Position numbers and translations under genes: made by a program
Source: Bacteroidales bacterium
Lineage (GTDB): Bacteria; Bacteroidota; Bacteroidia; Bacteroidales; P3
Assembly: GCA_017522065.1 (NCBI GenBank)
Contig: JAFXAD010000030.1
Span: 1-44,174 of the forward strand
DNA: 44,174 nt
Direction of reading: 5' to 3'
Notes under the pieces: generated by a model
Told to the model about the DNA's origin: nothing
Databases searched by the model: none
The model's input: the letters and a program-made list of their open reading frames with translations, nothing else
In this document: positions 7,174-40,426 of the stretch, piece by piece
Position numbering within the stretch: position 1 is the first letter of the stretch
How the letters are laid out: each line of letters starts with the position of its first letter

Positions 7174-7812
7174 ATGATTTACAAGAAAAACGAAAACCAA
7201 AACGTAACTTCGTGCGAAAACCAAAACGAAAACGTAACTTCGTACGAAAACCAAAACGAAAACCAAAAGTCTGGCGCACAGCCGAAAACAAAAGTTATGC
7301 TGGCTTGGAGCAACGGCCGCGAGACGCACCTGCACCCCTCGATGATGCACTTGGTCGAGGAGCGTCACCTGAAGCAGCTGGCAATACTCAAACAACAGGA
7401 AAATGAATTTAAGCTGGGCCCCGAAGGCTATTGCCGCAAGCTCAGCAGCGAGTACGAACGCTATAGCGACGAGCTGTGGCAGCTAGGGCTCCGCATCGAA
7501 AGCTATCGCTTGCTACTCTATGCCGCCGAGGCCCTGTTCGGGACCCCTCGCAGCTGGATCCACAGCATCCACACCAGCTGGTACCACGACAACCTCAGGC
7601 AGTTCCGCCGCCTGTTTCATCGCTGCCGCGAACGTGCCCAGCAGGACACGCGCCTGATGCCCGTCTTCAACGCCAGCCTGGTTAAAAAGCTCTATTTCCG
7701 TATGCTGGATGAATATTCCGGCTGCGCAATCAGCTACCGCGACAAGCGCAAGGACTGGACCCTTTGGGACGACATCTACCACTGGGATGGTGACAACCCG
7801 CTGTGTTCTTGA
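7174..7812 (+). CDS. Hypothetical protein with N-terminal 10-residue tandem repeats
   Basis: A 212-residue protein I do not recognise. It has no signal peptide or membrane segment. Residues 10-30 are a tandem decapeptide repeat (NVTSCENQNE, then NVTSYENQNE, then a partial copy), encoded by a 30-bp DNA repeat. The body (about 45-212) is rich in His, Arg, Tyr and Trp and looks helical and soluble, for example HLHPSMMHLVEERHLKQL and YCRKLSSEYERYSDELWQL. The start at 7174 is the first ATG after the leader; Met42 (in KVMLAW) is an alternative that would omit the repeats. It is the only plus-strand gene in this stretch. Its stop codon overlaps a GA-rich heptamer tract. Confidence 0.65.
   Translation: MIYKKNENQNVTSCENQNENVTSYENQNENQKSGAQPKTKVMLAWSNGRETHLHPSMMHLVEERHLKQLAILKQQENEFKLGPEGYCRKLSSEYERYSDELWQLGLRIESYRLLLYAAEALFGTPRSWIHSIHTSWYHDNLRQFRRLFHRCRERAQQDTRLMPVFNASLVKKLYFRMLDEYSGCAISYRDKRKDWTLWDDIYHWDGDNPLCS
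7202..7261 (+). repeat. Two 30-bp tandem repeats inside the 7174 coding region
   Basis: 7202-7231 and 7232-7261 are identical except at one position (TGC versus TAC); further partial copies of GAAAACCAAAAC lie on both sides. The 30-bp period preserves the reading frame, so copy number could change without breaking the protein. Confidence 0.85.
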
Positions 7813-7882
7813 AAACGGAGAACGGAGAACGGAAAACGGAAAACGGAAAACGGAGAACGGAAAGCGGAGAACGGAAAGCGGA
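7811..7882. repeat. GA-rich heptamer tandem repeat (GGAAAAC/GGAGAAC)n
   Basis: About ten tandem 7-bp units, variants of ACGGAAA, ACGGAGA and GCGGAGA, start at the stop codon of the 7174 gene. Read in one frame the tract gives heptads such as ENGKRKT and ENGERRT. Related segments occur inside the anti-sigma gene near 38.5, 38.7 and 38.9 kb. Confidence 0.85.
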
Positions 7883-8111
7883 ACGACAGTCAGAAAACTC
7901 GGCGTCGAAAAGCACCCTCGCCGAGCCTTATTCCGAAAAAGTTATTAACAACTTCTGACCATCTTCTACTGAGGTAGAATATGGTTAGAATTTGATAAGA
8001 ACTTGGGTAGAATTTGGTAAGAAGATGGTGCCTGGAAAACAGGCAGTTGTGAAATGCCGTTTTTGGCCATTTTTTGGCTTGCCGAAAGGAGAGTTATTAA
8101 CAAAAAAAAGA
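7883..8111. other. Intergenic region with short degenerate repeats
   Basis: No gene is seen here. The stretch contains a 10-bp inverted repeat (ACCATCTTCT 7958-7967, AGAAGATGGT 8020-8029) enclosing near-repeats of GGTAGAATTTGGTAAGAA, and two copies of GTTATTAACAA (7941 and 8093). Its role is unknown. Confidence 0.4.
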
Positions 8112-8148: not shown

Positions 8149-8269
8149 GTAGGATTAGTGAATGGTGAATAGTGACCTGTGACCAGTGGCCAGTATACGA
8201 TTTGTCCCTTTAACTTCCCTTAATTTCCTTTAACGTCCCTTAATTCCCCCAATCTCAACTTCCAACTTT

Positions 8270-35990: not shown

Positions 35991-36038
35991 AAGCAATCGC
36001 TTTGAACTCCCAAAGTTCGAAGCGATTGCTTTTTTTAG
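35991..36038 (+). terminator. Terminator after the polyferredoxin gene
   Basis: A long stem pairs AGCAATCGCTTTGAACT with AGTTCGAAGCGATTGCT (one G-U pair) around a 5-nt loop, followed by TTTTTTT; an A run precedes it, so it could work in both directions. Confidence 0.92.
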
Positions 36039-36165
36039 TAATCATTCAAATTTTTTTGACATTTATGGCAATTCACGGACATTTGCGGGCATTCGCGTTC
36101 TATAATATGATATAAGGTTAATTCCTGGACAAATCATGGTAATTCCTGTTTAAAGAAAGTGAAAG
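36039..36165 (+). repeat. Intergenic repeat family, locus A (single truncated unit)
   Basis: It contains TTTGACATTTATGG, then ATTCACGGAC and ATTTGCGGGC micro-repeats, TTAATTCCTGG, and GGTAATTCCTGTTTAAAGAAA. Order and spacing match the units at 36547 and 39809, although the GAGTAATTCGAGAAATTCG end is missing. It lies between the polyferredoxin terminator and the tRNA-Val(GAC) terminator. Confidence 0.75.
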
Positions 36166-36216
36166 TTAAATTTTGATCAGTTGCTTATAATTTGGAACTT
36201 TCTTTTTTTAGATACA

Positions 36217-36371: not shown

Positions 36372-36546
36372 AAAAAAAAGTTTTTCTATTTTGGTCTTTT
36401 TTTTCTTCTTGGATTATGTAATGTGTTGGAAAACAAAAATACACTATTGCTGAATTTTTTGTTTTTAGATGATGGTTTTCATTGCTGAGGATTGATAAAT
36501 GTGAGATAAAAACCGCGAATTTTATGAAATTCGTCCTTTTTTTATT

Positions 36547-36875
36547 AAGTAATTATTCAAATTTATTTGACATTTATGGTAATTCACAGATATTTACGGT
36601 TTTTCACGTTCTAAAACATATTTCCTGGTAATTCCTGTCAAAATAAAATGAAAGCTTTTTTGACCGTTAATAATTTATTAGAGTAATTAGCCTGTAATCA
36701 AATCCTGCGTAGCTTAGAGAAATTCGAGAAATTCGCCGTTTAAGTAATAAGTCAAATTTATGATAATTCACAGATATTCACATTCTATAACATAATTTCT
36801 GGTTAATTCTTGGCCAATTCCTGGTAATTCCTGTTAATAATAAAGCGAAAGTTATTTTTGACCGTTTACTTATTC
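36547..36875 (+). repeat. Intergenic repeat family, locus B (two tandem units)
   Basis: Unit B1 spans 36547-36741 (195 bp), and unit B2 runs from 36742 to about 36875 and is cut short. Each begins AAGTAAT, has ATTCACAGATATT micro-repeats, CTGGTAATTCCTGT near the middle and TTTTTGACCGTT; B1 ends GAGAAATTCGCCGTTT. The 36361-36546 stretch before it has no gene, only A/T runs and a CGAATTT-TATG-AAATTCG hairpin near 36514. Codon structure is absent in all frames. Confidence 0.85.
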
Positions 36876-38313: not shown

Positions 38314-39024
38314 TCAGAAACCGCTGCTTCCTATACCGATAGTAGTGCCTGTACTTGAGATGTTCGTAAAAGCAAAGCTGGGTGTGTCTTCTTGGTTGTG
38401 ACGCACTTCGGGACGGCATCCCGATCCGCAGACCAGACGCGTCGATGTGCGCTCATAGACAACGGGACTGTTGGACTCATGCTGATACATATCCTGATCT
38501 TTGTCTTCAGTCCTCTGTTCTCCGTTCTGGGTCTCTTCTGCCAAAAGTGGCTCGTCAGGCAGAACAACGGGCATTTCGATAATGGTCTTGTCTTCTTCCG
38601 ATTCGTTCTGCTGCATTCCGTGTGATGGTACCTCGGCGGTGGTTTCGCTGATGGCAAGTACCGCTGAGGTGTTCGGCCTGCGTACTTGGACTACCGATTC
38701 CATTCTCTGCTCTCCGCTCTCCGCACTCTTCTCTTCGCTTTCCACATGTGGCTTGGTTTTTGCAATCAATTGTTGCTGAGATGACGAAGTGCTGCCCTGC
38801 GAAAGTATGCGCAGCCCCACGATGGAAAGAAGCAGAACGCTGGCAGCAATGCCCGCATACGTCCAAAACAGACCGCCTTTCGCTTTCCGTTTCCCGCTTT
38901 CTGTTTTCTGTTCGTTTTTTGCCAGACGATCAATCATGTCGCTCAGTTGTTGCTGGCGGCGTATATCGGCCTCGCGGCGGCGTGCGGCCTCGAAAAGCTT
39001 GTTTATGTCGGGGGTGTCGTTCAT
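38314..39024 (-). CDS. Putative membrane anti-sigma factor
   Basis: A 236-residue single-span protein. The ATG at 39024 is chosen because it overlaps the sigma gene stop codon (ATGA) and opens a charged cytoplasmic helix (MNDTPDINKLFEAARRREAD); longer in-frame starts would run through the sigma gene. The membrane helix is near residues 50-73 (FWTYAGIAASVLLLSIVGL). The periplasmic part is low in complexity and Glu/Ser/Thr-rich. Three segments (near residues 38-48, 95-107 and 168-176) carry GA-rich DNA related to the heptamer tract at 7811. Position next to an ECF sigma gene supports an anti-sigma role; no known anti-sigma domain is obvious. Confidence 0.72.
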   Translation of the reverse strand: MNDTPDINKLFEAARRREADIRRQQQLSDMIDRLAKNEQKTESGKRKAKGGLFWTYAGIAASVLLLSIVGLRILSQGSTSSSQQQLIAKTKPHVESEEKSAESGEQRMESVVQVRRPNTSAVLAISETTAEVPSHGMQQNESEEDKTIIEMPVVLPDEPLLAEETQNGEQRTEDKDQDMYQHESNSPVVYERTSTRLVCGSGCRPEVRHNQEDTPSFAFTNISSTGTTIGIGSSGF

Positions 39025-39518
39025 ATCTTGATGGTTTTGATTTTTTCTTTTAATGACTGTAATGCACGTGAAAGTGTGGTGTAGACGTTGTTGCTGCTCA
39101 TCTGTAAGGCCTGCTCGATGTACTGCGTGTCGCGTTCTTCTATGTATTTCATTTTTATGGCCTGACGCTGTTTTTCGGGTAAGTCGTCGAGCAGGCGGTC
39201 CAGCAAGGCGGCATGGCTGGCAGTCTCTTCGACCTCCATTTCGACCTCCTTGTCGCTTAGGTAAGCAATCTGCTCGTGGTGGAAGGCGTCGCGCTTTCGC
39301 TTGCGGATTATGTCGATGCATCGCAAGCGCACCGTCTGCAGGCAGTAGGCCTGGAGGTTTAGCACCTTGTCAAGGTCGCTGCGCTGATTCCAAAGTGTGA
39401 CAAAGATGTCTTGCACAACATCTTCGGCTTCAGCCACATCTCCAAGCATGCGGTCTGCAAGAAGCTGCATCGCACTTTGAAGTGGTATTATCTGTTGCTT
39501 GAATTTGTCGCTATCCAT
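39021..39518 (-). CDS. ECF-family RNA polymerase sigma factor
   Basis: A 165-residue sigma-70 family protein. Region 2 is seen in LADRMLGDVAEAEDVVQDIF and VTLWNQRSDLDKVLNLQAYC; region 4 is seen in LLDDLPEKQRQAIKMKYIEE and QALQMSSNNVYTTLSRALQS. The length is typical. Such sigma factors in Bacteroidota often regulate surface proteins with a linked anti-sigma; here the next two genes are a membrane protein and an exported barrel-like protein. The upstream region (39519-39668) has no clear housekeeping promoter, consistent with autoregulation, and is followed by the repeat array. Confidence 0.93.
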   Translation of the reverse strand: MDSDKFKQQIIPLQSAMQLLADRMLGDVAEAEDVVQDIFVTLWNQRSDLDKVLNLQAYCLQTVRLRCIDIIRKRKRDAFHHEQIAYLSDKEVEMEVEETASHAALLDRLLDDLPEKQRQAIKMKYIEERDTQYIEQALQMSSNNVYTTLSRALQSLKEKIKTIKI

Positions 39519-39668: not shown

Positions 39669-40320
39669 AACGAAAATATTTTTTGACCTTTTACTTAATA
39701 ATTTATTAGAGTAATTAGTCTGTAATTGTGTGTTTAGTCTGTTATTAGAGTAATTAGTCTGTAATCAAGACCTGCGTAGCTTCGATTAATTCGAGAAATT
39801 CGCCGTTAAAGAAATAAGTCAATATATGGTAATTCGCGGACATTTACGGTTATTCACGTTCTAAAACATAATTCCTGATTAATTCTTGGCCAATTCCTGG
39901 TAATTCCTGTTAAAAAGAAAACGAAAGTTATTGTTGACTTATTATTTAATAATTTATTAGAGTAATTAGTCTGTAATCAAGACCTGCGTAGCTTCGAGTA
40001 ATTCGAGAAATTCGCCGTTTAAGTAATAAGTCAATTTATGATAATTCACGGACATTTACGGTTATTCACGTTCTAAAACATAATTCCTGATTAATTCCTG
40101 GCCAATTTCTGGTAATTCCTGTTAATAAAATGAAAGCATTTTTGACCGTTAGAGTAATTAGTCTTTCATCAAGACCAGCGTTGCTTCGAGTAATTCGAGA
40201 AATTCGCCGTTAAAGAAATAAGTCAATTTATGGTAATTCACGGACATTCAAAGTTGACGTTAAAGTTTTTCGTTCTCGTACAAAGTATGGTAATTTCTGT
40301 TAAATGAACATTTACTTAAT
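39669..40320 (+). repeat. Intergenic repeat family, locus C (tandem units of 192-212 bp)
   Basis: The units are: C0 (partial, to 39808), C1 39809-40020 (212 bp), C2 40021-40212 (192 bp) and C3 from 40213, decaying after about 40 bp. Full units share: AAGTAATAAGTCAATTTATG, ATTCACGGACATTTACGG, TTATTCACGTTCTAAAACAT, four phased TAATTCCTG-like words, TTTTTGACCGTT, GAGTAATTAGTCTGTAATCA, GACCTGCGTAGCTTCGAG and TAATTCGAGAAATTCGCCGT. In C0 a 24-bp segment (TTATTAGAGTAATTAGTCTG and four more bases) is duplicated at 39703 and 39742. There is no coding potential. Confidence 0.92.
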
Positions 40321-40326
40321 AAAAAA

Positions 40327-40349
40327 AAACGCCATATTGTGGCGGTTTT
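40327..40349 (-). terminator. Terminator of tRNA-Val(CAC)
   Basis: CGCCA and TGGCG form the stem core with a 5-nt loop, extended by A and T runs after one mismatch. On the minus strand it is followed by a long T run, directly after the tRNA. Confidence 0.75.
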
Positions 40350-40426
40350 GGTGGTCTGTTACAGATTCGAACTGTAGACCTCTTCCGTGTGAAGGAAGCG
40401 CTCTGAACCAACTGAGCTAACAGACC
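40349..40426 (-). tRNA. tRNA-Val (anticodon CAC), CCA encoded
   Basis: The minus-strand cloverleaf reads: acceptor GGTCTGT with ACAGACC, D arm GCTC-AGTTGGTTCA-GAGC, anticodon stem CTTCC with GGAAG around TTCACAC (anticodon CAC), and T arm TACAG-TTCGAAT-CTGTA. CAC reads GUG valine codons. Unlike the GAC tRNA at 36246, this gene encodes ACCA at its 3' end (40349-40352). It has its own promoter and terminator. Confidence 0.93.

Follow-up and report, generated by a model that had tools for sequence, protein, structure and literature searches.

Intergenic micro-repeat elements of a Bacteroidales genome and the association of GxxExxY genes with inverted micro-repeat arms

A tandem array of two interspersed elements

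The DNA analyzed here, referred to as the window, is a stretch of 44,174 nucleotides from a Bacteroidales bacterium (GenBank assembly GCA_017522065.1, contig JAFXAD010000030.1). At approximately positions 39669-40320 it contains an array with a GC content of 31%, versus 49% for the window, which has an RNA polymerase sigma-factor gene on one side and is adjoined on the other by tRNA-Val(CAC). Self-comparison revealed a 184-nt block present three times, at spacings of 212 and 192 nt, with the later copies having 93% and 61% identity to the first. The intergenic tandem repeat of 192-212 bp described in a first-pass annotation of this DNA is therefore real, and the conserved blocks which that annotation named are present. 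The array is periodic, as claimed, but its "unit" is not a single entity: it is a composite of two interspersed elements in alternation, A (64 bp) and B (~125 bp), each of which occurs on its own elsewhere in the genome or genus. Further copies of the elements, at 36030-36168 and 36545-36864, flank tRNA-Val(GAC) on both sides. The features are:

36030-36168, plus strand: copy of element B, between the upstream gene and tRNA-Val(GAC) (own-genome search and B search)
36545-36666, plus strand: copy of element B (own-genome search and B search)
36677-36741, plus strand: element A arm, 92% identical to the A core
36742-36864, plus strand: copy of element B, 81% identical to the reference B
39021-39518, minus strand: RNA polymerase sigma-factor gene (identity from reading the protein)
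39669-39704, plus strand: tail of element B (TTTTTGACC...TTTACTTAATAA); 39669-39726 is an 88% match to 39920-39977 (own-genome search)
39705-39726, plus strand: 5' fragment of an element A arm, its first 22 nt (blastn with the A core, 100% over 22 nt)
39744-39807, plus strand: element A arm, 64 bp, with the end AATTCGCCGTT; 98% identical to the A core
39809-39938, plus strand: copy of element B with two word arrays (ATTCACGG and AATTCCTG type); 89% identical to 40021-40148
39956-40020, plus strand: element A arm, reference copy (23 own-genome matches including itself; 21 of 59 sampled genus genomes at E ≤ 0.01)
40021-40148, plus strand: copy of element B, reference (8 of 59 sampled genus genomes at E ≤ 0.001; 35 own-genome places at E ≤ 10 including itself)
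40149-40211, plus strand: element A arm, 94% identical to the A core
40213-40320, plus strand: degraded element B, its first 36 nt well preserved (94% over 40213-40248), with the end TTTACTTAAT
40349-40426, minus strand: tRNA-Val(CAC) (ARAGORN) with a terminator-like hairpin

As the first-pass annotation had remarked, the array has no coding frame (no ORF of at least 80 aa lies inside it, and one unlikely ORF terminates at 39686) and is not CRISPR-like, since its blocks adjoin directly without unique spacers. An Rfam scan of the window at the gathering threshold returned one tRNA only and no match in the array. The tRNA-Val(CAC) at 40349-40426 was called by ARAGORN and was absent from that scan. 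Other micro-repeats in the window include a heptamer, GAAAACG, present ten times at 7811-7883, a 30-mer (AAAACCAAAACGAAAACG...) in 2.6 copies at 7187-7263, TCCCTTAACT in four copies at 8205-8248 and CCTCCAAC in seven copies at 1-58.

The units are not confined to this locus; such confinement, without relatives in the genome, was an outcome that the first-pass annotation had named as counting against its proposal. A search of the genome with the unit at 39809-40020 found 73 places at E ≤ 10, self counted, the best non-self match being the next unit (83%, E = 2e-59); units therefore occur beyond the window array, and relatives were found across the genus. At the loci of sigma-gene homologues the array was seen by eye in none of 11 (L230-L240). 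One of these, L240 in genome G005, has the same gene order as the window (a sigma gene only 43% identical to that of the window, tRNA-Val(CAC), and the next gene, this last recognized by eye) and lacks the array, so that the array was either gained in the window lineage or lost in the L240 lineage. That copies up to 93% identical recur in tandem with a period of 192-212 bp indicates that duplication did occur at the array; this duplication of the A-B composite probably came after the array had been added to the locus.

Element A is a 64-bp arm (ATTAGAGTAATTAG...CCTGCGTAGCTTCGAGTAATTCGAGAAATTCGCCGTT) in which the words AATTCG/AATTAG lie 9 bp apart; it ends in CGCCGTT, and GTAG is internal. Among 223 distinct A arms, 518 of 520 intervals of up to 14 nt between TTMG words were 9 nt, in a collection made by a profile search that favours ungapped arms. 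Element B, of ~125 bp, carries the words ATTCACGG/ATTTACGG followed by AATTCCTG, that is, two arms of non-A words. The word pitch of 10-11 bp put forward in the first-pass annotation applies inside each half of the two best B copies; it does not apply to A, at 9 nt, or to three older B copies, in which the pitch is irregular. Curvature through helical phasing, which that annotation had suggested, is unsupported for A given this 9-bp period.

A was found without B in most of the sister species searched, and B without A in genome G005. An exact scan for the A pattern in one genome per species of 84,980 species returned 73 stretches, all of them from Bacteroidales/Bacteroidetes and several from ruminants. 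Head-to-head doublets of A are frequent in sister species. Among the 122 A islands at the loci fetched, 33 were simple doublets and 27 more included one (60/122 with a head-to-head pair). Fifty-one doublets with different sequences form long imperfect palindromes. The A copies in the window are in direct orientation, with no doublets. Three distinct islands lie inside an ORF. Among 82 islands with a usable setting (genes being taken as the longest ORFs), 49 lay between co-directional, 17 between divergent and 16 between convergent neighbours, which is near the background of neighbouring ORF pairs at the same loci (271, 70 and 76, respectively) and argues against a terminator or operator as the general role of A. 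A terminator role was rejected because the islands have no orientation bias.

Additional repeats were observed at some of these loci. A complete doublet, together with its flank, occurs three times in tandem at L048 (G002:C1:150500-153200), with a 213-bp period, and A arms at L025 (own genome, C13:4000-10000) adjoin long tracts of the hexamer GTTAAG and the heptamer GTTAAAG. A third interspersed repeat, AAATCTTGTAGATCTTGTAGATTAATTCCGCC-like, was observed at L017 and L022 (own genome, C20 and C6); its word is common to the arms of another subfamily of the GxxExxY genes described below (L189-L192), and the window's own genome carries one gene of that subfamily (C43:68158-68481).

GxxExxY genes between inverted arms

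Seven head-to-head A pairs with a loop of at least 150 nt were present in the first loci fetched, and six of them, representing four distinct places, hold a GxxExxY ORF of 131-137 aa. The ORF of L043 matched TIGR04256 (GxxExxY; E = 1.4e-42, 144.8 bits, cut-off 35), and those of L105 and L075 matched PF13366 (PDDEXK_3; E = 8.7e-40 and 136.2 bits, and E = 1.7e-41 and 141.6 bits, respectively, cut-off 22). The ORF of L109, which has a frame change near its end, was detected with a custom GxxExxY profile. The seventh loop, L030, has no ORF longer than 51 aa. The gene between the A arms is thus a clear member of the GxxExxY family.

The reverse search, from gene to arms, found a GxxExxY match in 41 of 59 genus genomes and A arms inverted on both sides of the gene in 11 of the 59, the window's own genome included (L132, G000:C25:9662-10054). 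When 30 GxxExxY loci of the genus were laid out and ranked by E-value, the first 11 (L129-L139; 58-100% identity to the query) had A arms on both sides, L140-L142 (58-59% identity) had weak or partial A matches, and the remaining 16 were without A-type arms. In nine of the 11 A-armed loci a candidate start lies 2-39 nt past the left arm, the exceptions being L133, where it overlaps the arm by 2 nt, and L131, where it is at least 76 nt away. The right arm contains the stop codon in six of the 11 loci and lies at a distance of 253 nt in L132. The cassettes measure 517 to 1470 bp with all tandem arms counted, and L134 has piles of seven and five partly overlapping arm matches. All 11 genomes have additional A matches away from the gene, and a further 10 of the 59 genomes have A matches without an A-armed GxxExxY gene; two of these 10 are marginal (G027 and G066, E 0.004-0.005), and G066 carries the weakly armed L142.

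The GxxExxY protein is conserved. Among nine genes dN ranged from 0.12 to 0.32; because dS was saturated for 34 of the 36 pairs, the dN/dS ratio is only roughly known. Residues E32, D72, E82, K84 and Q96 were invariant in 25 diverse members. In the PD-(D/E)XK superfamily the active-site residues are D-x(n)-ExK, and the invariant residues are, as far as sequence can tell, as expected for an active nuclease of this kind. An AlphaFold model made from two sequences was poor (pLDDT 41), so the predicted nuclease fold rests on Pfam and the motif residues; among proteins of solved structure the best phmmer match was at E = 0.1. A defence system was considered and rejected, PADLOC giving one weak match (E = 0.003), as was a viral origin of the gene, for which a scan of viral contigs with one protein gave one pattern match and no relative.

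Inverted arms are not restricted to the A type. For each gene examined in the genus, the 400-nt left flank was compared with the reverse-complemented 400-nt right flank. Mispaired flanks from genes under 45% identity served as the null distribution and 28 ORFs of at least 120 codons from the same loci as controls. The genus gave 95 matches, some being pieces, from which 70 loci, corresponding to 69 distinct genes, were examined, with the weakest left out. Fifty of the 69 genes were above the 99% level of mispaired flanks (19 failing) and 54 above the 95% level (15 failing), versus none of the 28 control ORFs above the 99% level. The words of the arms vary by gene and include AATTCG, CACGAATT, GACAAC, CAATCAGATT, AAATCTTGG, AAGAATT, CAGCAATT and others. 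When all pairs were included, similarity of the arms was correlated with that of the proteins, measured as identity (Mantel r = 0.34, p = 0.001); for pairs under 60% identity only, no correlation was found (p = 0.11).

Across the phylum, 59 of the 118 genomes sampled carried members of the family, versus 0 of 14 control genomes. At the 30 best-scoring phylum loci, with 31 genes, the flanks of 18 exceeded all 100 shuffles and those of 13 did not; against mispaired flanks, 15 of the 31 were above the 95% level and 11 above the 99% level. Many of the arm words in these genomes are of CACAGAG or CGCAGAG type. Eight plasmid-borne genes, of which two were unannotated and had their ends guessed, were also compared: arms were significant in three (Bacteroides finegoldii, Bernardetia and Prevotella nigrescens; p ≤ 0.005) and not in those from Treponema, Persicobacter, Gemmatirosa, a Fusobacteria bacterium and Sphingomonas. 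In the last of these (L280, a Sphingomonas parapaucimobilis plasmid record) the gene sits between fabD and fabG with gaps of 33 and 2 bp and no significant inverted arms, and is perhaps a settled form.

In general, an arm consists of a single word recurring every 9-11 bp in a short array, and its outer end is TTAAC-like in about a fifth of cases: TTAAC was found near the outer end of 22 of 100 genus arms and nine of 40 phylum arms, versus 2.9% and 2.0%, respectively, at random positions. The two word arrays of element B resemble such arms, the first those of L156 (85%), L173 and L174 (79%), and the second those of L165 (86%). In the loci compared the resemblance was one of similar words, none of the GxxExxY genes having arms exactly like those of B; we infer that the parent of B is a GxxExxY element.

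Filled and empty versions of the radA-FAD site

The B. finegoldii cassette sits between radA and the gene for a FAD-dependent protein. We searched for this junction in 295 genomes of the order and in 80 genomes of the genus of G234, presumably Bacteroides or a near relative. The 40 best-scoring loci, which are not a random sample and include some that are near-identical, were inspected, and 36 with both anchors were usable. Fourteen of the 36 were filled, with a GxxExxY ORF in 451-590 bp, 21 were empty, with 1-90 bp between the anchors and no gene, and one (L320) had a different insert. The nearest empty locus, L299, has anchors with protein identities to B. finegoldii of 100% (radA) and 93% (FAD). 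This one site is thus polymorphic in occupancy, and loss of the gene is as possible as its insertion. In many genomes the gene keeps to this position, so that the pattern there may also have arisen by vertical inheritance and loss.

The two arms of the filled loci vary jointly. They match each other in word although the loci differ (CACAGAGGA, CACAGATTA and CGCAGATTA types), and the score of a left arm with its own right arm averaged 50.9, versus 30.3 across loci (permutation p = 0.0002, with relatedness not modelled). There were exceptions, as L314 has the gene without arms and L288 scored 25, below the cross-locus mean. By eye, three of the empty loci (L310, L313 and L283) retain arm-like words.

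Possible origin of the arms and of the array

We consider it rather likely that the array in the window is a heap of gene-less arms, or "solo ends", of very small GxxExxY elements. A complete element would consist of one or more arms, the GxxExxY gene and one or more inverted arms. The protein would recognize the words of its own arms and cleave DNA and, with host repair or recombination, may copy or move the DNA that the arms bound. Arms without a gene, whether doublets, single or tandem, would be mobilized in trans as non-autonomous copies, in the manner of RAYT-REPIN. Element B would represent two arms, joined together, with words of other GxxExxY types. Copies of both elements would have landed between the sigma-factor gene and tRNA-Val(CAC) in the window lineage, A as arms, and the A-B composite would then have been amplified in tandem. 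No movement or transposition event was observed in the genomes compared. Also weighing against this origin are the lack of target duplications in 31 clean-ended doublets, the genes that fell short in the flank comparisons (19 of 69 in the genus, 13 of 31 in the phylum and five of eight on plasmids), the loss of the correlation between arms and proteins below 60% identity, and the want of a GxxExxY gene bearing the arms of B. That the words are conserved and the spacers free fits recognition by a protein over a kept hairpin, and the same arms flank a gene of a nuclease family; an array of protein sites, which the first-pass annotation had suggested, is therefore still the reading that we favour, and to it we add the composite unit, its dispersal and the cognate gene elsewhere, which lay beyond the view of that annotation.

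The nearest known kind of system is REPIN/RAYT, with which the elements described here share their logic and from which they differ in enzyme and ends. In REPIN/RAYT (PMC3116915, PMC3733652), as here, short extragenic repeats are found as single copies, as tandems and as inverted doublets, and copies of one repeat stand on either side of a gene for a small enzyme; each of several gene subfamilies has a repeat of its own, and gene-less copies are also found where a genome has no gene. RAYTs are thought to spread REPINs. By contrast, the RAYT (TnpA_REP) is a HUH/Y1 tyrosine transposase, whereas the family here is PF13366 PD-(D/E)XK/TIGR04256; our arms are word arrays of 9-11 bp with no terminal GTAG or CGTC tag, and the spacers of our doublets are non-complementary. 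The BrickBuilt MITE of Porphyromonas gingivalis (PMC4596501) is likewise from Bacteroidales, intergenic and small, with inverted ends and a tandem minisatellite within a dispersed element. Its unit is 23 nt, unlike the short words with a pitch of 9-11 nt found here, and the elements described here have a cognate GxxExxY gene and no target duplication that we could see.

Of the other explanations, the one that survives best is that the arms are operators of the GxxExxY protein kept by the host, the protein being a domesticated nuclease or repressor and the gene-less arms the distant operators of its regulon. In its favour, most of the 11 A-type loci have arms next to the gene's start and stop, the words are conserved while the spacers are free, the protein is conserved, and there are closely packed gene runs, such as the fabD-fabG case, in which a GxxExxY gene has no significant arms. 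This explanation is nonetheless unlikely, as the A islands have no promoter preference, A matches persist in 10 of 59 genomes that have no gene with A arms, and the piles of seven and five overlapping matches in L134 would be odd for an operator.

Alternatively, the arms may be ordinary MITEs of an unrelated transposase, with the GxxExxY gene a captured passenger. They are dispersed, AT-flanked and intergenic with inverted ends, and the link between protein and arm is one drawn from sequence. We regard a passenger gene as improbable, however, because many differing arm words each bracket a GxxExxY gene, the seven long A loops contain no other gene, and left and right arms change word jointly at the radA-FAD site. 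In addition, 31 clean-ended doublets had no excess of duplications of 2-9 nt over shuffled pairs, so that, of the traits of classical DDE insertion sequences and MITEs, filled and empty versions of a site were found and target-site duplication was not.

It is more improbable still that the arms act as RNA or single-stranded DNA hairpins, such as terminators or mRNA stabilizers, with the inverted doublet kept for its fold. The 51 distinct doublets are long imperfect palindromes, as this would predict, but the identity of left and right spacers was 0.32 versus 0.38 ± 0.06 when shuffled between doublets (19 of 51 readable), indicating that base pairing is not maintained in the readable doublets; furthermore, the window copies are direct rather than inverted, there is no Rfam match, and the arms are not in excess downstream of genes. 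Finally, local tandem duplication or intrinsically curved DNA, unconnected to the gene elsewhere, would account for the 192-212 bp period with up to 93% identity and for the micro-repeat words, but is refuted as a full account by the 73 own-genome matches and the matches in other species, while the 9-bp period of A speaks against curvature, leaving this explanation with next to no probability.

What appears to be new here is the association of the GxxExxY family with inverted micro-repeat arms. In the part of the open-access PMC literature that was covered, no link between GxxExxY and repeats was found, the family appearing in the context of reverse transcriptase neighbourhoods and in a virus genome paper, neither apparently concerned with repeats; the TIGR04256 and PF13366 database entries name no repeats. 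To this extent, and with no Rfam match, the description of the array as undescribed in the first-pass annotation agrees with our results.

Returning to the preferred reading of the arms as ends of GxxExxY elements, we tentatively propose, as a serious possibility, that GxxExxY proteins are the enzymes of a large unrecognized class of minimal mobile elements. Each element would encode a single PD-(D/E)XK nuclease, with no known transposase partner, that recognizes ends made of word arrays; these ends would coevolve with the nuclease and spread in trans. Much intergenic micro-repeat DNA of Bacteroidota that has lacked an explanation (AATTCG, CACAGAG, CACAGATT and AAATCTTGG types) may have its source in this class. 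Because the arms vary jointly and the site is polymorphic in occupancy, the idea could be tested directly at little cost, with one small protein and one short DNA. If true, the proposal would provide a parent for the intergenic micro-repeats found beside GxxExxY genes in many Bacteroidota, a first biological role for a family present in half of the phylum genomes sampled, and a REP-like system built on another enzyme fold.
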